Below, piece by piece: positions 5,299-39,615 of a stretch of DNA of 51,631 bases (position 1 is the first letter of the stretch; each line of letters opens with the position of its first letter). Below the pieces are notes generated by a model, which did no database searches, was not told where the DNA came from, and saw only the letters and a list, made by a program, of their open reading frames with translations. Location of the stretch: NCBI GenBank assembly GCA_023244835.1, contig JAHFLN010000003.1:1-51631 (forward strand), written 5' to 3'. The stretch comes from Candidatus Harrisonbacteria bacterium. GTDB taxonomy: Bacteria; Patescibacteriota; Minisyncoccia; UBA6257; UBA11618. The position numbers and the translations under genes are program-made.

Positions 5299-5565
5299 AT
5301 GGCATTCAAGGATGACGTGATGCGGGTTGTGCGGGAGATACCGCGCGGCTCCGCACGCACGTATAAGCAGGTCGCAGTCCTGGCAGGTAAGCCGAAGGCA
5401 TATCGCGCGGTTGGGACTATTTTGAAAACGAACTTCGATCCTGCGATACCGTGCCATCGCGTGATCCGTTCTGACGGGAAGCCGGGGGAGTACAACCGCG
5501 GCGCGAAAAAGAAAGTTGAATTATTGCGTGAGGAAGGGTACTATGGAAAGCGTAATCCGGAGTAG
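5299..5565 (+). CDS. MGMT-family / alkyltransferase-like DNA-binding protein
   Basis: MAFKDDVMRVVREIPRGSARTYKQVAVLAGKPKAYRAVGTILKTNFDPAIPCHRVIRSDGKPGEYNRG; PCHRV active-site motif. Confidence 0.9.
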   Translation: MAFKDDVMRVVREIPRGSARTYKQVAVLAGKPKAYRAVGTILKTNFDPAIPCHRVIRSDGKPGEYNRGAKKKVELLREEGYYGKRNPE

Positions 5566-5627
5566 TTCAATGGTAGAACGCCTCGCTGTTAACGAGGATG
5601 TCGTAGGTTCGATCCCTACCTCCGGAG
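5556..5627 (+). tRNA. tRNA-Asn(GTT)
   Basis: Full cloverleaf by eye: TCCGGAG acceptor, GTTC/GAAC D-stem, CCTCG-CTGTTAA-CGAGG anticodon arm, GTAGG-TTCGATC-CCTAC T-arm, CTCCGGA-G. Confidence 0.95.
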
Positions 5628-5698
5628 CAAGATATATAGTGAATAGCGGTGTGGGTAATTTATTGTGTAATCAAGCGTCGTTATGATAGTATATCCAT

Positions 5699-6153: not shown

Positions 6154-6178
6154 TGGGTAAAGGGAGCGGGGCAGCGAT

Positions 6179-6277
6179 TAATAAACTAAATCCGCTTCTG
6201 TGGGGATAAGTCAGGAATATAGATATACTGGGTATTTTTCTTAAAAAAAGTTCTAACATCCTCCACGATGCGGAGCC
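6179..6277 (+). repeat. Dispersed intergenic repeat, copy 1
   Basis: AATAAACTAAATC...GGATAAGTCAGGAATATAGATATaCTgGGTATTT...AAAAAAAGTTcTAACATCCTCCACGATGCGGAGCCA; shared with 6867-6964 and partly with 10931-10984. Confidence 0.8.
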
Positions 6278-6349: not shown

Positions 6350-6565
6350 ATGGAAAAACAAAAAGTAAGCCCCGCTTTTCAGCAAGCTACGAAAGCTGTT
6401 GAAAAAATCAGGTCAGTATTACCAAAGCTCACCGAGTCTGAAAAAGCAACGTTGGAAATCTTGCTTGATGAAGAATCGCGCAATCACTTAGCGCAAAGCC
6501 TTAAGGACGCCAAGGAGGGTAATACCGTATCGTGGGAAGAAGCATTGAAAGAGCTTAAGAAGTAA
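6350..6565 (+). CDS. Putative antitoxin of RelE-type TA module
   Basis: 71-aa acidic ORF, stop overlapping the start of the RelE-like ORF. Confidence 0.7.
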   Translation: MEKQKVSPAFQQATKAVEKIRSVLPKLTESEKATLEILLDEESRNHLAQSLKDAKEGNTVSWEEALKELKK

Positions 6566-6852
6566 TGCCGTATTTGATTCGGTTTACTACCTACGCTTTA
6601 AGATTGTTGAAAAAGACCCCGCCCAACTTACAACCATTACTAATCAAGGAGTTAGAAGTTATAAAACAAGCGCCTTATCAAGCGGCGCAATTAAGTGGAA
6701 AGTTTTCTTTTCTGCGCTCATGGCATGTATATCTGCGTGGCGTGCCCTATCGGATCGTGTATGAAGTGCAGGAAAATGGGAAAGAGATTCTCGTGCATGT
6801 GCTCGCTAAGCGTGCCGACGTCTATAAGTTACTTGAGCGTTTATATAAATAG
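6565..6852 (+). CDS. RelE/ParE-family toxin
   Basis: YLIRFTTYALRLLKKTPPNLQ...LSGKFSFLRSWHVYLRGVPYRIVYEVQENGKEILVHVLAKRADVYKLL. Confidence 0.88.
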   Translation: MPYLIRFTTYALRLLKKTPPNLQPLLIKELEVIKQAPYQAAQLSGKFSFLRSWHVYLRGVPYRIVYEVQENGKEILVHVLAKRADVYKLLERLYK

Positions 6853-6866
6853 AGAAGAGATACTCA

Positions 6867-6964
6867 ATACGCTAAATCTACCCCTATAGAAACAGATCAG
6901 GAATATAGATATGCTCGGTATTTCCCCTGAAAAAAGTTTTAACATCCTCCACGATGCGGAGCCA
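6867..6964 (+). repeat. Dispersed intergenic repeat, copy 2
   Basis: CTAAATC...CAGATCAGGAATATAGATATGCTCGGTATTT...AAAAAAGTTTTAACATCCTCCACGATGCGGAGCCA. Confidence 0.8.
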
Positions 6965-7062: not shown

Positions 7063-7092
7063 TTGACAAATGCAAATAAGTTGCATTAAGAT
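7063..7092 (+). promoter_or_regulatory. Promoter with embedded Fur/Zur-type palindromic operator
   Basis: TTGACA (7063-7068) - N18 - TAAGAT (7087-7092); spacer contains ATGCAA-ATAAG-TTGCAT (7070-7086). Confidence 0.7.
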
Positions 7093-7099
7093 GGAGGGC

Positions 7100-7513
7100 A
7101 TGAGTTCCGATCAATCGAAGGAGGTTGCGCATACATATCGCGCTACCCAAGCTCGAACATCCATAATTGCCGTCTTAACTGAGGGGAACGCTCCGCTTTC
7201 TGTCGGGGAGATTCTTGATGTTTTAAAAAAGAGGAAGTCGTGTCCGAATAAGACAACGGTATACCGCCAGCTCGCGACTCTCATAAGGCGGGATATGGTC
7301 AAAGAAGTTCAATTTACCGAAGGCGCGAAAAGATATGAAATGGCCGATACGGGCCATCATCACCATGTCGTTTGTACGCAATGCAAAAGAGTCGAGGATG
7401 TGACGGTGGAGGGGGATTTAGCCGCAGAAGAGAAGATGATTGCGAAGACGAAAAAGTTCAAGGCGTTGAGGCATTCGCTCGAATTTTACGGATTATGTCC
7501 GAAGTGCGCTTGA
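7100..7513 (+). CDS. Fur-family metalloregulator (Fur/Zur-like)
   Basis: YRATQARTSIIAVLTEGNAPLSVGEIL..., NKTTVYRQLATLIRRDMVKEV, GHHHHVVCTQCKRVED, YGLCPKCA. Confidence 0.9.
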   Translation: MSSDQSKEVAHTYRATQARTSIIAVLTEGNAPLSVGEILDVLKKRKSCPNKTTVYRQLATLIRRDMVKEVQFTEGAKRYEMADTGHHHHVVCTQCKRVEDVTVEGDLAAEEKMIAKTKKFKALRHSLEFYGLCPKCA

Positions 7514-8289
7514 AAGGTATGGAAAATCCTATTAGGAAATTATACGGAAAGCTCACAGCGCTTAAAACTTATACGCCGTCGGAAGAGGTGAATGGGCTTT
7601 TTGTCGAATTGGTGCGGCTCGCATTAGGTCCAGACGATAAAAATACGCTTACTGCGGAGGAGATGGATAAGCTACAGGTCATTTGCGGGACAGCCGAATA
7701 CGAATTAGAGAAATATTGGGCTGAGAAGATAGTGCGAAGCGATGATCCGAAAGGGGTAATGGAGGATTTTCCTTATATGGAAAATTACCAAAAGCTTACG
7801 CGGATGGAATGGTTTTCCCTGCTCTCATGCGAAGCGCATGAGGAGCATGGGATATTTTTCGCCGGGGGCGGTCCGTTGCCCCTTACGGCGATCCTTCTAG
7901 CAAGGGATTATGGCCAGAAAGTAACTGTGGCGGATATCGATGCCGATGCGTGCGATTTTTCAATGCGCCTTGTAAAAGCGCTCGGTTTGGATAAAAAAAT
8001 AACCGTTATCAATGCCGATGCGGCTGAATACGAGGGGTACGGCGGCTTTAACGTCATTATCGTCGCTGCCTTAGCGGGATTGGAAAAGGGCATGAAAGGC
8101 AGGATATTAGGAAAGATAAAAAAGCACGCGCTTCGCGGAGCGCATGTGCTCGCTCGGAGCAGTTGGGGTATGAGGGAATTATTATATCGTCCTCTTGAGC
8201 CGGAGGCATGCGATGGTTTCAAGCGAATTATCGAAGTGAGGCCGCGGAACGATGTCGTAAACTCAATCGTGATTTTCAAGAATTCCTGA
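7495..8289 (+). CDS. Nicotianamine synthase-like protein (NAS/CntL superfamily)
   Basis: MENPIRKLYGKLTALKTYTPSEEVNGLFVELVRLAL..., FFAGGGPLPLTAILLARDYGQKVTVADIDADACDFSMRLVKALGL, NVIIVAALAGLEKGMKGRILGKIKKHALRGAHVLARSSWGMRELLYRPLEP...RPRNDVVNSIVIFK; line up with plant/archaeal NAS motifs from memory. Alternative start 7519. Confidence 0.82.
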   Translation: MSEVRLKGMENPIRKLYGKLTALKTYTPSEEVNGLFVELVRLALGPDDKNTLTAEEMDKLQVICGTAEYELEKYWAEKIVRSDDPKGVMEDFPYMENYQKLTRMEWFSLLSCEAHEEHGIFFAGGGPLPLTAILLARDYGQKVTVADIDADACDFSMRLVKALGLDKKITVINADAAEYEGYGGFNVIIVAALAGLEKGMKGRILGKIKKHALRGAHVLARSSWGMRELLYRPLEPEACDGFKRIIEVRPRNDVVNSIVIFKNS

Positions 8290-8291
8290 TC

Positions 8292-9221
8292 ATGGATAAG
8301 ATTCCCGTATACCTTATACACGGTTCGCTGGGTAGCGGGAAAACGACCGTTTTGAACAGGCTTATCGGTTCGGGCGTTTTTAACAATGCCGTTGTGGTTG
8401 AAAACGAGTATGCCGACTATAACTTCGATAAGGATATGATCGTGGGAAAAACGAAAGTATTCGGCGTTTCAGGGGGCTGCATATGTTGTTCTTCGGGACA
8501 AGAGTTATTCGATGCTCTTCATGAAATTGGGGGCGCGAAGGGCAACGGACCCCTTTTCATAGAGACGACCGGAGTTGCGAGCTCTGTCAGACTGGTGAGG
8601 CAGCTGATGCTGTCAGGCGAGTTCGAGGATAAATATGAACTAGTTCGTAATATCCTGGTTTTAGATATTCTGGAAGACGACCTTAGGGTTATCATGAAGG
8701 AGAAGGCTCTCGATGTCGTTATGGCGGACCTAGTCATACTTAATAAGGCTGATTTGGCATCGGCGGACGTAGTCGAAGAATTCAAGCATTTCATCGGGAC
8801 CGTTTCCGATGCGTTGGTTTTCGTGACGGAATATGGCGCGGTTGACGCGGATATGGTTCGGTCGGTTTCGAAATCGCGGGCGGACAGGGTCTTGCTCGAT
8901 AACATGGGTTGTTTCTCCGGTGACGGCGCGGACCACTCGAAAGATATTCTGTACCAAGTGATATATCCAACCGTCAAAATTGCCGCGGAAGAGCTGATAT
9001 CGGAAATCAAGTCATCATGCGCGCGTTCGGGTATGGAAATAACCAGGATCAAGGGCGTATGCACGGATCCTGCCGGGAAGAGATTCTCGATACAGGCGAC
9101 AAAAAGCAATCATGCGATACTGCCGGTTACGGGCGGGCATGATGATGTGCTGGTCATGATCGGCAAGAACGTTACGAAGGAAAATATCAGGCCGTTGATG
9201 CTCCGACTATGCAAGAACTGA
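8292..9221 (+). CDS. COG0523-family (CobW/ZNG1-like) G3E GTPase, metallochaperone-like
   Basis: Walker A HGSLGSGKTTVLNRL, NEYADYNFD, GGCICCSSGQEL (CxCC motif), ETTGVASS, NKADLA. Confidence 0.88.
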   Translation: MDKIPVYLIHGSLGSGKTTVLNRLIGSGVFNNAVVVENEYADYNFDKDMIVGKTKVFGVSGGCICCSSGQELFDALHEIGGAKGNGPLFIETTGVASSVRLVRQLMLSGEFEDKYELVRNILVLDILEDDLRVIMKEKALDVVMADLVILNKADLASADVVEEFKHFIGTVSDALVFVTEYGAVDADMVRSVSKSRADRVLLDNMGCFSGDGADHSKDILYQVIYPTVKIAAEELISEIKSSCARSGMEITRIKGVCTDPAGKRFSIQATKSNHAILPVTGGHDDVLVMIGKNVTKENIRPLMLRLCKN

Positions 9222-9808
9222 AAGATATAATCGCATTTTCAGGGCAGGTGGCAGATCGGCTTATCATGCAATATGGGGAATATGTTTTTTTAAGCGCGAA
9301 AATCAAGGGGCTTGAGGATGAAAAATTCAGAATGATTTTAGCGATAGCGAAAGAAAGGAGTATTGGCGTTCAGGATGCGCTGAAGCAAGAGGCGGATGGC
9401 ATGCTGAAGCGGATGAATGAGATCATCGCGCTGTATAGGATTGATTTGGAACGCGTTTCGGACGAGATGACGTTTCCAAACCCGCTTATATGGATGACGT
9501 ACAAGTACAAGGCGTATAAGGGAACGAGTAGCGAGATCGCCACCATGGGAGATTTCAGGAGGCACTGCGCGCCTGCGGGATATATATGCACCGCCCGTTT
9601 CGGCTTCATGCGGGATTATATGGAGGATAAGAACCGGATAAATATAAATGATAAGGCGAGGTATCCGGATGAAATAAAGCTTCCCGATTTTTATTTGAGC
9701 AAGGAAGCAGTTGGCTTATTAGCGGATACGGATTTCATGTCCGAATGGAAGCGGAGGGAATATCTCATAACGGAAAATAAGATCAATAAATGGAATGCGT
9801 CCCACTAG
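9209..9808 (+). CDS. Uncharacterised protein in NAS-COG0523 operon
   Basis: 199-aa ORF overlapping the upstream stop by 13 nt and the downstream start by 14 nt; no family recognised by eye. Confidence 0.8.
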   Translation: MQELKDIIAFSGQVADRLIMQYGEYVFLSAKIKGLEDEKFRMILAIAKERSIGVQDALKQEADGMLKRMNEIIALYRIDLERVSDEMTFPNPLIWMTYKYKAYKGTSSEIATMGDFRRHCAPAGYICTARFGFMRDYMEDKNRININDKARYPDEIKLPDFYLSKEAVGLLADTDFMSEWKRREYLITENKINKWNASH

Positions 9809-10937
9809 GATAGTCTTCTATGGGGTGATTGCATTGGTCGCGGCCTTAGGGGTATTTCTCATATCCGGCCGCGCGGATTCATTTTTTATACGCGCATTGC
9901 CGTCTGATTCCACTTCATTTTCATTTGCGCGGATAACGGACATAAGCGAAGAAGTACACCTCGAATCTCCTGCGCCATATTACATTCAGACGATACAAGC
10001 CGATTTTCTCCATAATGAGAATGGCGGCGGGAAAACGATTACCCATTATCGCGGCTTACTTGGTGCGGACGCAGGGCAGAAAATGCGCGTCGGCGAAACG
10101 GTCGTCCTCGTGAAAAATACGAACTTCGAGGGCGGGGATGCGTATTTCATATCCGACCGTTATCATTTACCCGCGTTACTCGGTCTCGGACTGCTCTTTT
10201 TCGTCGCAGTCGTCGCACTCGGCGGATTGCGGGGCCTTACTTCCTTTCTGGGGCTTATCTCAAGTATTGCCGTTTTACTACTGTATATTGTCCCCGCGAT
10301 TCTCGCAGGGCAAAACGCCCTATTCGTCAGTTTTATAGGCGCGAGCTTGATAGCCGTCTTTTCCCTATATCTCGGGCACGGGTTCAACGCACGAACGACA
10401 ATAGCGCTCATCGCCACGCTCATAACGCTCGGTATTGCGGTGGGTATGGCGGTCGCGTCGGTTTATTTCACAGAACTTATGGGTATTGCGTCAGAAGAAG
10501 GCTTTTTATTGAATCTAAAGGTTGCGACGCTCAGCCTGCGCGGGCTTCTACTTGCGGGTATCGTTATTGGCATGATGGGTGTTTTGGACGATGTGACAAC
10601 GGGACAGGCCGCAATCGTGCATGAATTACATGAAGCAAATCCGAGTTTGGATTTTCGCGAGTTATATCGCCGTGCCACGGCGGTCGGCAGGGAGCATATC
10701 GCGTCGCTTGTAAATACGCTCGTGCTTGCGTATGCGGGCGCATCGCTTCCCATATTTCTCTATCTTATTATACAGAGCCAGCGTGCGCCGTGGTGGATAG
10801 TTTTGAATCAAGAGCTTATCGCTGAGGAAATTGTACGTACGCTCGTGGGCAGCCTCGCGCTCGTGCTCGCCGTGCCGATTACGACCTCGCTTGCGGCGTG
10901 GTATTACGGAGTGATGGTAAAAATAGGTAATCAATAA
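9795..10937 (+). CDS. YibE/F-family multi-pass membrane protein
   Basis: LPALLGLGLLFFVAVVALGGLRGLTSFLGLISSIAVLLLYIVPAILAGQN..., GMMGVLDDVTTGQAAIVHEL, GREHIASLVNTLVLAYAGASLPI. Confidence 0.88.
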   Translation: MRPTRIVFYGVIALVAALGVFLISGRADSFFIRALPSDSTSFSFARITDISEEVHLESPAPYYIQTIQADFLHNENGGGKTITHYRGLLGADAGQKMRVGETVVLVKNTNFEGGDAYFISDRYHLPALLGLGLLFFVAVVALGGLRGLTSFLGLISSIAVLLLYIVPAILAGQNALFVSFIGASLIAVFSLYLGHGFNARTTIALIATLITLGIAVGMAVASVYFTELMGIASEEGFLLNLKVATLSLRGLLLAGIVIGMMGVLDDVTTGQAAIVHELHEANPSLDFRELYRRATAVGREHIASLVNTLVLAYAGASLPIFLYLIIQSQRAPWWIVLNQELIAEEIVRTLVGSLALVLAVPITTSLAAWYYGVMVKIGNQ

Positions 10938-10984
10938 ACTAAATCAGTCCGTGTGCGGATAGATCGGGAATATAGATATGCTCG
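10931..10984 (+). repeat. Dispersed intergenic repeat, copy 3 (5' part only)
   Basis: TCAATAAACTAAATCAGTCCGTGTGCGGATAGATCGGGAATATAGATATGCTCG, matching the 5' part of copies at 6179 and 6867. Confidence 0.75.
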
Positions 10985-10988
10985 TAGC

Positions 10989-11018
10989 TTGACGAAATAT
11001 ACCCCTAGGGGGTATTAA
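10989..11018 (+). promoter_or_regulatory. Promoter with embedded CsoR-type operator
   Basis: TTGACG - N18 - TATTAA with palindrome ATACCCCTAGGGGGTAT (10999-11015) in the spacer. Confidence 0.75.
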
Positions 11019-11025
11019 TAAGAAT

Positions 11026-11292
11026 ATGGTCGATATATCGAAAAATAAAATTGCGCGGCGTCTGAAGATTGTCGAGGGGCAAGTGCGCGGGTTACAGGAA
11101 ATGGTCGATAAAGGTTCGTACTGCATCGATGTTATCACGCAAACATCGGCAGTGAAGCGGGCCTTGTCTGGCATCGAAGATATGATAATGGAGAATCATC
11201 TGGGTACATGCGTTATACGTCAGATCAAGAAGGGTGAAGAGGACAAGGCGCGGCAGGAGATATTGAAGGTGTATCGCCTGAAGCGTAAATAG
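11026..11292 (+). CDS. csoR: CsoR/RcnR-family metal-sensing repressor
   Basis: RLKIVEGQVRGLQEMVDKGSYCIDVITQTSAVKRALSGIEDMIMENHLGTCV (Cys-His-Cys ligand spacing). Confidence 0.93.
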   Translation: MVDISKNKIARRLKIVEGQVRGLQEMVDKGSYCIDVITQTSAVKRALSGIEDMIMENHLGTCVIRQIKKGEEDKARQEILKVYRLKRK

Positions 11293-11311
11293 AAACATAC
11301 GTAAGAAAATT

Positions 11312-11566
11312 ATGATGAACTGGGCATATGGGTACGACGGTATGATGGGGTCGTTCGGTTTTGGCGGCTTTATTTTTATGGTGGCGTGGTGGGCGGTCGT
11401 CGCATACGTTCTTGTGTGGATATTTAAGCAGGTCGGACACGGGTGCGGAGGACATCGTTCCGGCGCGCATCATCCATCGGCGCTCGAAGTCCTCAAGGAA
11501 CGGTACGCGAAAGGCGAGATTGATAAGAAGGAATTTGAGGAAAAGAAACGGGACATAATCGGCTAA
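11312..11566 (+). CDS. SHOCT-domain small membrane protein
   Basis: TM segment followed by [26 protein letters not shown]. Confidence 0.85.
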
Positions 11567-11571
11567 TAAGA

Positions 11572-13857
11572 ATGCAAACATATACGATAAAGGGAATGCA
11601 TTGTGCGTCATGCGCGAGCATCATCGAAGGCGCGCTAAAAAAAGCGGAGGGCGTTGTATCGGCCGAAGTGAATTATGGAACGGAATCCGCAAAAATAGAT
11701 TTTGACAGCGTGAAGACGAGCTCAGCCGAAATTTCAAAAAAAATCGAGCCACTCGGCTATTCGCTGATCGTTCCTACGGCTGAAGAGATGGGAATGTCTG
11801 AAGAGGAGCATGCCGGACATCTCGGATTGAACCAGTCGAAAAAGGAGAAGGCGGCAGAGCTTGCTGATATGAAGAGGAAGGTGATTGCCGTGCTGCCCCT
11901 CGCCGTTTTCAGCGCCTTCGTTATGGGGTGGGATATCCTTTCTTCATTCGGCACGGTGCCGCAGGTTCCGTACGTTTGGAAAGAATTTTTCCATCATCTT
12001 CTGCCGCTCATGGCGACATATGCGCTTTTCGTTACGGGTAAGCCCTATCTACTCGGCTTATACCGCTTTATCCGGCATGGTGCGGCAAATATGGACACTT
12101 TAATTGGTCTCGGTACCTCGGTGGCGTATGTGTATAGTTTTATCATTGCCGCTTTTGAGGAAGCCCTAAGGCCGTTTATCAATGTCGAAAATACCTATTA
12201 TGACGTCACGATTGTCGTTATCGCCTTTATCACGCTCGGTAAGTATCTCGAAGCGCGATCGAAACTGAAAACGGGCGACGCCATAGAAAAGCTCCTTAAT
12301 CTCCAGGTGAAAACGGCAACGGTAATCCGTAACGGGAAAGAAATAGAAGTTGCTGCGGATCAGGTAGTCCGAGGCGATATGATCATAGTGCGGCCTGCGG
12401 GAAAAATCCCTGTTGATGGAGTTGTTGTCGAAGGCTCGTCATACGTCGACGAGTCGATGATTTCCGGAGAGCCTATTCCTGTGGGAAAGGATATAGGAGA
12501 TATCGTTGTTGCGGGAACCATCAATACCACCGGATCATTTACGTTCAAGGCGACGAAGGTCGGGGCGGAGACGCTGCTTGCGGGCATAATACGAATGGTG
12601 AAAGAGGCGCAGGGGAGTCGCGCGCCCATACAGGCGTTAGCGGACAAAATCTCCGGTATTTTCGTTCCGGTTGTCTTAGCGTTATCAGTCGTTACGCTGA
12701 GCATATGGCTCGGTGCCGGAACCCAATATCTCGGACTCTCCCAGGCGCTTTCATATGGATTAGCTTCGTTCGTCGGCGTTCTCGTGATCGCCTGTCCCTG
12801 CGCCTTAGGGCTCGCGACGCCGACGGCGATCATTGTGGGAGTAGGCAAGGGCGCGGGCGCGGGAATCCTGATCAAGGACGCGGCGACGCTCGAAACGCTG
12901 CATAAGGCCGATGTCATCGTGATGGACAAGACAGGCACGATTACCAAGGGGAAGCCGGAGGTGGTTTCGATACGTAATGATTCAGGGCACGACGAAGGGC
13001 GCTTTATCTCATTGCTCGCGTCGCTCGAGAAAAAATCGGAGCATCCGATTGCCCATGCCATACTCTCGTATGCTAAGGAGGGGGGCAACGCGTTGTTCTC
13101 TGTGGACGGATTCGAGGCGATACGGGGTAAGGGTGTGCGCGGGCAGATTGAAAATACCGAGTATTATGCGGGAAATATAAGGATCATAGAAGATCTCGGC
13201 CTTTCGTTCGACACGGATTCGTTGGAAAGAGAAACCAGAGAAGGTAAGACGCCGGTGATTCTCGCAACAAGGGAGAAAGTATGGGGCGTAGCGATGGTCG
13301 CAGACGCCATAAAGCCGGAGGCGGCCGCGGCAGTGGCTCGCCTTCACGCGCTCGGTATGCAGGTTGTCATGCTTACGGGGGATACTAAGAACACGGCGCA
13401 GTATATAGGAAAACAAGTCGGTATCGACGAGGTGATCGCGGAGGCGTTGCCGGAGGAGAAAATACGGAAAATTAAGGAGTTGCAGTCAAAAGGGAAGATT
13501 GTGGTGATGGCCGGCGACGGAGTGAACGATGCGCCCGCTCTCGCGCAGGCCGATATCGGCATCGCGATGGCAACAGGGACCGACGCGGCGATCGAGAGCG
13601 CGGGCATAACTCTGCTTCACGGGGATATCTCGAAGTTGGTACAAGCGGTCAATCTATCGAAAATGACGATGCGTGGAATTAAGCAGAATCTATTTTGGGC
13701 GTTTATTTACAACATCGTCGGCATTCCGGTCGCGGCCGGGGCGTTGTATCCGTTTTTCGGGTGGCTCCTAAATCCCGCTATTGCGGGCCTTGCGATGGCG
13801 TTATCGAGCGTATCGGTGGTCGGTAATTCGCTCCGCCTCAAGGCGAAATCCCTATGA
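11572..13857 (+). CDS. copA: Copper-translocating P-type ATPase
   Basis: [24 protein letters not shown] domain, [44 protein letters not shown]. Confidence 0.96.
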
Positions 13858-14876
13858 CAAAAACATTCACGCTTCATGTTCATGGGATGCACTGTAATTC
13901 ATGCGTTCTTGTGACCGAGCGCGAGCTGCGGAAGCATCCAAAAATATCCAGGGTACAATCAAGCCTTAAAACCCATTCGGTTGAAATCCAAGGTGATTTC
14001 GGAGATGAGTCGTTGGGCGCGATAGCCGAAGAGTTGACGGATGTGGTTTCGGGGTATGGCTATTCGCTTGCCATCGAGCGGCAGATGAGAAAGAAGAAAT
14101 GGGAGGATTTCAAAGTGGCGATTCCGCTCGCGATCGGATTCATCGCGGTATTCGTGTTATTGCAGAAAATAGGCATAGTGAATCTGGTGAGCGCATCCCG
14201 CGTGACCTACGGCACCGCATTCGCGGTAGGTATTATCGCCTCGCTTTCGACGTGTATGGCGGTCGTTGGGGGCTTAGTGCTCTCGATGTCGGCAACATTC
14301 GCGAAAGAGGGGGACGCGGTGCGTCCGCAGCTCTTATTCCATGGCGGAAGGCTACTGTCTTTTTTCATTCTTGGGGGCGTTCTCGGGGCGCTCGGCAAAG
14401 CGTTAACGCTCGCCCCAATCACGATGTTTGCCATAAATATTCTGATCGGGGCAGTGATGCTGATTCTTGGCATTAATCTGCTCGATGTATTCCACGGAGC
14501 TAAGCGGTTCCAATTCACGACGCCAAAATTCATTTCGCGGCATGCGTTCGGCGTTTCGGAGCTGAATCATACGCTCACGCCGTTTTTGGTCGGCATCGCG
14601 ACATTCTTCTTGCCGTGCGGTTTCACGCAATCGATGCAATTATATACGCTTACAACAGGAGGTTTTGTAAGCGGAGGGCTTACTATGCTCGCATTCGCTG
14701 TAGGAACATTACCCGTGCTTGCTCTGATTAGCTTTAGCTCGTTCAGTATTCATACAAAATCGCAGGCGGGCATCTTCTTCAAGACGGCGGGGCTTGTCGT
14801 GATAGCGTTCGCCATATTCAACTTGATAAATAGCGCGGCGGCCATCGGTCTCATTCCGCCTATATTCACCATATGA
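13854..14876 (+). CDS. HMA domain fused to sulfite exporter TauE/SafE-like (COG2836) membrane domain
   Basis: [21 protein letters not shown] then [27 protein letters not shown]...[20 protein letters not shown]...[20 protein letters not shown]. Confidence 0.85.
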
Positions 14877-15262
14877 AAATAAGCATCATATCTAGCATCG
14901 CCGCCGCCGCGCTCGTGATCCTCGCGCTCCTGTCCGTTCGGGGCGACTCGGGACAGCCTACTGATATTCCGGGGAATAATGTGACGGTCGAGAATGGGAG
15001 GCAGATAATCGAGCTACGGGCGAAAGGGGGCTACGCACCGAGAGAAAGTATCGCTAAAGCCGGCATGCCGACGATTCTGCGCATCAAAACAAGCGGCACA
15101 TTCGATTGTTCGTCGGCGGTCCGCATTCCCAGTATGGATATAAGCAGGAACTTGCCGTCATCAGGAACAACCGATATCGATATTGGTAATATACAATCAG
15201 GCACGCTGCAAGGTAGTTGCGGGATGGGCATGTATCCGTTCGAGGTTGTTTTCGAGAAGTAG
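14873..15262 (+). CDS. Cupredoxin-like exported protein
   Basis: Signal/TM N-terminus, QIIELRAKGGYAPRESIAKAGMPTILRIKTSGTFDCSSAVRIPSMDI...LQGSCGMGMYPFEVVF. Confidence 0.8.
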   Translation: MKISIISSIAAAALVILALLSVRGDSGQPTDIPGNNVTVENGRQIIELRAKGGYAPRESIAKAGMPTILRIKTSGTFDCSSAVRIPSMDISRNLPSSGTTDIDIGNIQSGTLQGSCGMGMYPFEVVFEK

Positions 15263-37962: not shown

Positions 37963-37998
37963 TGCCGATAGGCGCAGGATGCGACCTATCGGTTTTTT
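37963..37998 (+). terminator. Intrinsic terminator
   Basis: CCGATAGGCGCAGGATGCGACCTATCGGTTTTTT. Confidence 0.75.
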
Positions 37999-39256
37999 AC
38001 TGGAACAGTTTCGCGTATTCCTCGTATCCTTCAGCGCCGAGATTTTCTTTTGGGATGAAGCGGAGCGCGGCCGAGTTCATGCAATAGTGTTTGCCGCCAC
38101 GGTCTGCGGGACCGTCATCGAACTTATGGCCGAGATGCGAACCTGCTAAGCGGCTTACGATCTCGGTACGGGGATAGAGGAGATAGTAGTCGGTTTTCTC
38201 TACGATATTTTCCGGCGCGAGAGGCTTTATAAAGCTCGGCCAGCCAGTGCCCGAGTCGAACTTATCCTTCGATGAGAAAAGAGGTTCGCCGGAGACAATA
38301 TCGACATATATACCATCGCGATATTCCTTGTCATATAGGTTGTCGAACGGCTTTTCCGTATCCGCTTCCTGCGTCACGGAGTATTGGAGCGGCGTGAGTT
38401 TCGCTTTAAGCTCGGCGAGAGAAGGTTTTATAAAGCACGGGCCGCAGAAGCCCTCGCGCGTTGGCTTGGGGCGGAGCGCCGTATAGCGTGCGGTTGCCTC
38501 CGCAGTCCAATAAGTCGCAAAGAAGGTCTCGCGGCCGCTGCCGCCGCGGTAGTACGAGTAGCGCACGGGATTTTTCGTATGATAGTCCTGATGGTAATCT
38601 TCGGCCACATAGAAGGGGCCGGCGGGGAGGATATCCGTTACGATAGCCTTATCGCTGAAGACATGGCTTGCGGTAAGGGCTTGTTTTGCGGCTTCGGCTT
38701 TCATTCGCTCGTCGTCAGTGCGGTAGAAAATCCCGCCCTTGTATGACGGGCCGCGATCGACGAATTGGCCGCCTGCGTCGGTAGGGTCGACGGCATGCTG
38801 GAAGAACCAGTCGAGGAGGCCGTCATAGGAAATAATTGCGGGGTCATAATGAACTTCGACCGATTCACGGTGGCCGGTTGTTTCGGACGAGACTTGTTGG
38901 TACGAGGGATTTTTTTCGATTCCTCCCGTATATCCCGAAATCACGGATATGACGCCGGGAGCCTTCTCAAAGTCGGCTTCGGTGCACCAGAAGCATCCGC
39001 CGGCGAAAGTAGCGACAGCTTCTCCATGCGGAGTATTCGCGGTGGTCGCAGGTTTCACGATCGGGGCGGCTTTCGTGGTTGGAAGAGTTTCGGGCGCGGG
39101 AGATGATTCCGGGGCTGGGGAGACTTCCTGTGCGAGGGGGGCTGATGCGGGCGAGAGTTCGGTGGGGTGCGAGCGCATGGCGCGGAAGCCGTAGACGCCC
39201 GAAGCGATGAGGAAGATAGCCGCAAAAGCGATCCCGAACTTCGCAGCTAAGCCCAT
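37997..39256 (-). CDS. msrAB: Membrane-anchored MsrA-MsrB fusion methionine sulfoxide reductase
   Basis: [31 protein letters not shown]...; [11 protein letters not shown]...[30 protein letters not shown]. Confidence 0.95.
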
Positions 39257-39615
39257 AGGGAAAGGAAGACACCGAGATAATGCACGACGACGTAGAGGAA
39301 GAAAATATAGCCGAGTACGCCAATAACAAGCGTGATTGCGATGAGGTTTATAATCTCGTTCTTCCGTCGCACGGCGTCGTCGATTGTGCAGATGCCCTTT
39401 TGCCGGCGGAGATATGCGACGAGGCTCACGGCGAGCAATATAAGCCCCACGGCGCGGAACGCCCATTTATAAGTTCCATAGAGCGTCGTTGCGAGCGATG
39501 CGCCGAAGGAGACGCTCGCGAGACCAAACGATACGAGAATTACAGGCGAGAGGCAGCAGAGCGAGGCGACGAAAACGGGGAACGCCGATAGTTTAAAGAT
39601 GTCTTTGATGCGCAT
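39247..39615 (-). CDS. MerT-like small membrane protein with vicinal Cys pair
   Basis: [61 protein letters not shown]. Confidence 0.65.

Follow-up and report, generated by a model that had tools for sequence, protein, structure and literature searches.

Enzymes of the nicotianamine synthase (NAS) family have been described as full-length PF03059 proteins in plants and fungi and as the archaeal thermonicotianamine synthase (MTH675, here MtNAS), and a NAS-like aminobutyrate transferase fold is also that of CntL, the enzyme of the often metal-regulated staphylopine and pseudopaline operons. Zur regulons commonly include genes for COG0523 GTPases, and metallophore clusters can be Zur-controlled too (PMC6103462). 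The DNA analysed here, a 51,631-nucleotide stretch of Candidatus Harrisonbacteria bacterium (contig JAHFLN010000003.1; hereafter the window), carries an operon in which these elements meet: a Fur-family regulator, a NAS, a COG0523 GTPase, a 199-residue protein of a previously undescribed family, and a YibE/F-family membrane protein. Comparison across genomes indicates that the NAS, the GTPase and the new partner, under a common operator, are a real module that occurs sporadically in distant relatives. Our literature search returned no description of a NAS in these bacteria; the match obtained dealt with azetidine synthases.

As the initial annotation had it, five co-directional open reading frames (ORFs; 7100-7513, 7495-8289, 8292-9221, 9209-9808 and 9795-10937, all on the forward strand) abut or overlap behind a single promoter with a palindromic operator, and the locus is self-contained. 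The predicted promoter has a -35 hexamer TTGACA (7063-7068) and a -10 hexamer TAAGAT (7087-7092) with a spacer of 18, and inside that spacer the predicted operator AATGCAAATAAGTTGCATT fills positions 7069-7087 as a perfect 19-bp palindrome, with arms AATGCAA and TTGCATT around ATAAG and a core of TGCAA-N5-TTGCA. This core occurs once in the window, against an expectation of 0.01, and the 7-5-7 palindrome has one exact copy in the 658-kb genome, the sole other site (two mismatches) being on a different contig. The listed start of the regulator, 7070, falls within the operator, which makes ATG 7100 the likely one; this codon lies about 8 nt past the -10 box, at or a few bases 3' of the expected transcription start, and the regulator mRNA is likely to be nearly leaderless.

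Profile, catalytic residues and predicted fold all identify the product of 7495-8289 as a genuine member of the NAS family. It scores 168.6 bits against PF03059 (E = 2e-49; curated cut-off 27.1 bits) and aligns to the sequence of the MtNAS crystal structure at 3e-23. With its AlphaFold2 model (predicted local distance difference test, pLDDT, 84.8), the best Foldseek match is MtNAS (8e-14; template modelling score, TM, about 0.75-0.78), CntL follows at 0.70, and ordinary methyltransferases are far behind both, which upholds the earlier suggestion of a NAS-like enzyme and speaks against an unrelated S-adenosylmethionine methyltransferase. E72 corresponds to E81 of MtNAS and E77 of AtNAS1, and Y98 to MtNAS Y107 and AtNAS1 Y106; the two plant residues are essential (PMC10248798), and their equivalents are invariant across eight microbial homologues. 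Four residues before the catalytic Glu, E68 stands at the position of AtNAS1 E73, and after the conserved Ala-Ala-Leu, at the place that the VGMD loop takes in plants, there is an insertion, AGLEKGMK, to which a gap corresponds in MtNAS; these plant positions were placed by spacing and the text of PMC10248798, not by aligning a plant sequence. Although the window loop does not read VGMD, E68, the loop and the catalytic residues together suggest a nicotianamine-type rather than a CntL-type product. Because the first residues from 7495 are predicted to be disordered and a relative begins nearby, translation may start at ATG 7519 instead.

The enzyme thus resembles MtNAS in family, fold and catalytic Glu and Tyr, and in having no opine dehydrogenase in view, and differs from it in the loop insertion and in belonging to a regulated operon with a COG0523 GTPase and a new protein. 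The contrast with CntL operons drawn in the initial annotation also stands: the protein reaches 32.2 bits with the CntL equivalog model, far under the cut-off of 350, no cnt-type transporters are seen, and the operon includes a COG0523 GTPase and the new protein. A search of ten genomes with PF10100, the family of the opine dehydrogenase CntM, gave no match, with controls likewise silent. No histidine racemase (CntK) is apparent in the operon by sequence, the rest of the genome not having been searched.

NAS genes are rare in this part of the bacterial tree. Matches over the cut-off came from 3 of 387 genomes in a class sample, two of these matches being full length, and from 4 of 384 in a phylum sample, with three full length, and the cassette is present in about 1% of genomes. 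The regulator, NAS, COG0523 GTPase and 199-residue protein recur together at four other loci (L006, L014, L015 and L016), and a fifth (L028) has NAS, COG0523, the partner and the operator with no intact regulator identified; the cassette is thus known from four to five genomes beyond the window, in two classes. What is conserved is the gene set, in several arrangements, and this upholds the initial annotation, which a lack of conservation in related genomes would have refuted. In one layout the order is NAS, short COG0523, partner (window, L015, L016, L028), and in the other a long His-rich COG0523 precedes NAS and partner (L006, L014); in L006, L014, L015 and L016 the Fur-family gene is divergent from the cassette. 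The three genes form an uninterrupted run at every opened locus of the samples with a full-length, cut-off-passing NAS, except L017. From locus to locus, the cassette proteins have identities of about 17-54% and diverge broadly in parallel. Three of the loci (L015, L016 and L027) occupy a corresponding chromosomal site, between topA and the genes pth and der.

The operator is conserved along with the genes. TGCAA-N5-TTGCA is present in the control regions of all eight related loci, exactly in seven and with one mismatch in L016; each exact match is unique in its own locus, and shuffling puts the chance per region at 0-0.6%. It lies within the -35/-10 spacer in both the window and L005, and L006 has a second site, with one mismatch, just 5' of its COG0523 gene. 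Since the identical gene set and operator are found again in distant genomes, the locus is beyond what chance would produce. Other NAS matches stand outside this picture. L017 (9653-10447, genome G633) carries a stand-alone NAS-like gene of 40.9 bits with both catalytic residues, without the loop insertion and outside any cassette. The NAS match of G853 is interrupted by an internal stop and is apparently decaying; next to it are a Fur-family gene and an operator with one mismatch. Weak matches were set aside in G073, where the protein is a methyltransferase-like one of 183 residues, and in G366 and G477, which are under the cut-off. The one bacterial relative that bears a name is a Candidatus Microgenomatus record, and the cassette neighbours are absent around the NAS of an archaeal Halocatena plasmid, which is 39% identical.

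The GTPase (8292-9221) has the Walker A motif GSLGSGKT and the CxCC motif in the form GCICC, scores 101.9 bits against PF02492 (4e-29, over the cut-off) and matches YjiA at 5e-15, so that its earlier assignment to COG0523 is supported; with the ZigA zinc chaperone equivalog it reaches 45.7 bits against a cut-off of 600. Like the Zur-regulated COG0523 genes yciC and zigA, it is under apparent Fur-family control, whereas the window locus misses the Zur and ZigA cut-offs, has a Nur-like operator, and adds a NAS and a new partner. The long COG0523 proteins of L006 (7744-9351) and L014 (7715-9364) have 535-549 residues, include a His-rich stretch and are extended at the C terminus by about 200 residues that Pfam does not match.

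The 199-residue protein (9209-9808) represents a new family, called P0004 here, as judged against Pfam, NCBIfam, PHROG, the Protein Data Bank (PDB) and viral folds, predicted cellular structures lying outside the comparison. Searches of Pfam, NCBIfam and PHROG gave no convincing match for any member, and the family profile finds nothing meaningful among PDB sequences. Its confident model is all-helical (pLDDT 90.1; predicted TM-score 0.80), and fold searches of the PDB and of viral structures gave none matching (best E values 0.92 and 0.85). The seven members are about 28-54% identical and share 22 invariant positions, including the polar residues D85, K99, H119, C127, R130, D148 and D154. Matches in the class and phylum samples are confined to genomes with a full-length NAS; the profile was built from five members out of these same genomes, so this shows restriction and is not an independent test. 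Plasmids, phages and viral contigs yielded no match. Two members lie outside the profile. One (G830, L028) adjoins COG0523 and NAS; the other (G843, L027) is fused to COG0523 as a 470-residue protein, divergent from a Fur-family gene and with the shared operator, in a genome that is 67% complete and in which no NAS was found. This fusion to the GTPase, at a NAS-less locus, is the strongest clue to function: the 199-residue protein is most likely a partner of the COG0523 GTPase and not a metallophore-tailoring enzyme.

The last gene (9795-10937) encodes a YibE/F-family membrane protein (PF07907, 7e-66; 222.6 bits against a cut-off of 27.2), with a homologue in L006 at 2e-66. It is present at two of the seven cassette loci and the others carry different membrane proteins, which marks it as accessory and does not sustain the exporter role first proposed for it. 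In L006 YibE/F overlaps the regulator, and a ZIP-like protein, matched weakly by Pfam at E = 0.007, is encoded divergently; in L015 an ArsP_1/TIGR03943 pair lies beside the cassette, and ORFs of similar appearance are found there in L016.

The regulator (7100-7513) belongs to the Fur family (PF01475, 7e-24) but reaches the cut-off of no Fur-subfamily model, the Zur equivalog giving 38.7 against 167 bits; of the Fur/Zur-like label in the initial annotation, the Fur part holds and the Zur part does not. One extra Cys lies near the recognition helix in the regulators of the window, L015, L016 and L027 and none there in those of L005, L006 and L014 (N2OS residues of the sensory site are not conserved among Zurs). 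The operator core, wherever exact, equals the tTGCaa-N5-ttGCAA box of the Streptomyces nickel regulator Nur (PMC3919588); the gene content of the Streptomyces regulon is unrelated, and the window regulator is no more than a candidate Nur. As no subfamily cut-off is reached, the Zur-type Cys is inconsistent and the operator is Nur-like, no single metal can be assigned, both zinc and nickel remain candidates, and the proposal of zinc as the probable metal is not borne out.

The operon begins some way beyond a tRNA-Asn gene (5556-5628, forward strand). Between the window and the congener G388, identity is 77-90% from ribonucleotide reductase to this tRNA, after which the DNA is unrelated (the G388 contig ends about 600 bases on), and GC content falls from about 57% to about 43% at the tRNA 3' end. 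NAS is absent from the congeners, both the three for the window genome and all 15 for G359. Because synteny ends there, GC falls and the congeners lack NAS, the cassette is part of an accessory region whose upstream edge is the tRNA. No integrase was seen, and a search of the window for a duplicate of the tRNA 3' end, as an attachment site would leave, gave none. In G388 the tRNA-Asn gene (L041:902-1188) is split in its anticodon loop by an intron-like insert of about 215 nt with no Rfam intron match. Between tRNA and cassette is a ParE/RelE-like toxin gene (6565-6852); its scores stay under the curated cut-offs, and an antitoxin gene probably precedes it. A 63-nt intergenic repeat (6169-6231, 6855-6917 and 10922-10984; 62-75% identical to the reference copy) flanks the cassette on both sides and gives no notable RNA fold; in the first two copies it is longer, at about 109 nt. 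Directly 3' of the cassette is a copper operon (10999-15262) for a CsoR-type repressor, a CopA-type ATPase, an HMA-DsbD-like protein and a cupredoxin, with TACCCCTAGGGGGTA, a palindrome similar to a CsoR operator, ahead of these genes. Farther along, 37997-39466 encodes a 489-residue methionine sulfoxide reductase in which MsrA and MsrB are fused. FtsZ and UvrABC genes are present, and we take the organism to be a reduced-genome bacterium of the candidate phyla radiation type.

Our preferred reading, which we think probable without holding it firmly, is that the cassette is a metal-starvation-induced, horizontally spread module that acquires or distributes a scarce divalent metal in a reduced-genome bacterium. 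From its position and conservation, TGCAA-N5-TTGCA between -35 and -10 would be the site at which the metal-loaded Fur-family repressor shuts the operon, which would open when metal falls. The NAS would then build a nicotianamine-type chelator by joining aminobutyrate units taken from S-adenosylmethionine, the COG0523 GTPase and its helical partner, physically linked if the gene fusion is a guide, would load metal onto client proteins, and the locus-variable membrane proteins (YibE/F here, ZIP-like or ArsP/TIGR03943 elsewhere) may move metal or chelate in one direction or the other. Since no opine dehydrogenase match and no cnt-type transporter was seen, the chelator is more likely to serve within the cell, buffering metal or handing it over as a ligand, than to be a secreted opine metallophore. 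That the chelator passes its metal to the GTPase through a dedicated helical adaptor, as one relay that gene transfer has carried between reduced-genome bacteria, is a tentative elaboration that may well prove wrong. Several observations weigh against our preferred reading. A locus from a different collection, found in a scan of genome contigs (L005), has regulator and NAS without COG0523 or P0004 at the locus, and L027 has regulator and fused GTPase-partner with no NAS found, so neither half of the cassette strictly needs the other. The COG0523 proteins of L006 and L014 are divergent long forms with GCFTC in place of CxCC. Either zinc or nickel may be the metal, a YibE/F exporter role, and hence secretion, is possible, and the whole reading draws on sequence and predicted structure, including a PF10100 search that was silent in controls too.

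Secretion would mean that the NAS makes a nicotianamine-like zincophore, that YibE/F exports it, and that the chelate is taken back up by an importer encoded at another place in the genome. CntL, a relative of the NAS, does make secreted zincophores in staphylopine-type clusters, and here a membrane protein is predicted to be co-transcribed with the NAS; however, the published clusters have CntM, MFS, EamA or MatE exporters and dedicated importers (PMC7438024), none of which is seen at the cassette loci, and with YibE/F at so few of these loci and PF10100 unmatched in ten genomes, as in the controls, we consider this unlikely. About as improbable is a second biosynthetic role for the 199-residue protein as a tailoring enzyme on the NAS product. 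Its seven invariant polar residues would suit such a role, and it adjoins the NAS in L006 and L014, though elsewhere it stands beside COG0523 in the same cassette, and the GTPase fusion tells against it, as does the all-helical model, for which no enzyme gave a fold match. A little less doubtful is a nickel or cobalt module, otherwise as in our preferred reading, in which a Nur-like regulator governs a chelator and GTPase that serve Ni or Co and not Zn. Such a module would fit with a ribonucleotide reductase encoded 3 kb away, which has a B12-type insertion domain; DNA specificity, however, does not fix metal specificity, the profile models place the regulator in no subfamily, and both the ZIP-like neighbour and COG0523 proteins are often linked to zinc. 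We give very little credence to the cassette being an accessory of the copper operon that handles copper: it lies directly upstream of the copper genes and similar 63-nt repeats stand 5' of both operons, but the promoter and operator types are separate, and the neighbourhoods of the other cassette loci showed no copper operon.

It is only partly understood how metal reaches COG0523 GTPases and how these select their clients, and the role of microbial NAS enzymes without an opine dehydrogenase has been little studied. A compact, recurrent cassette in which one operator governs a NAS, a GTPase and a partner linked to that GTPase by fusion opens both questions with four soluble proteins, and suggests that a dedicated chelator pathway can exist in bacteria with genomes of only about 0.5-1 Mb.

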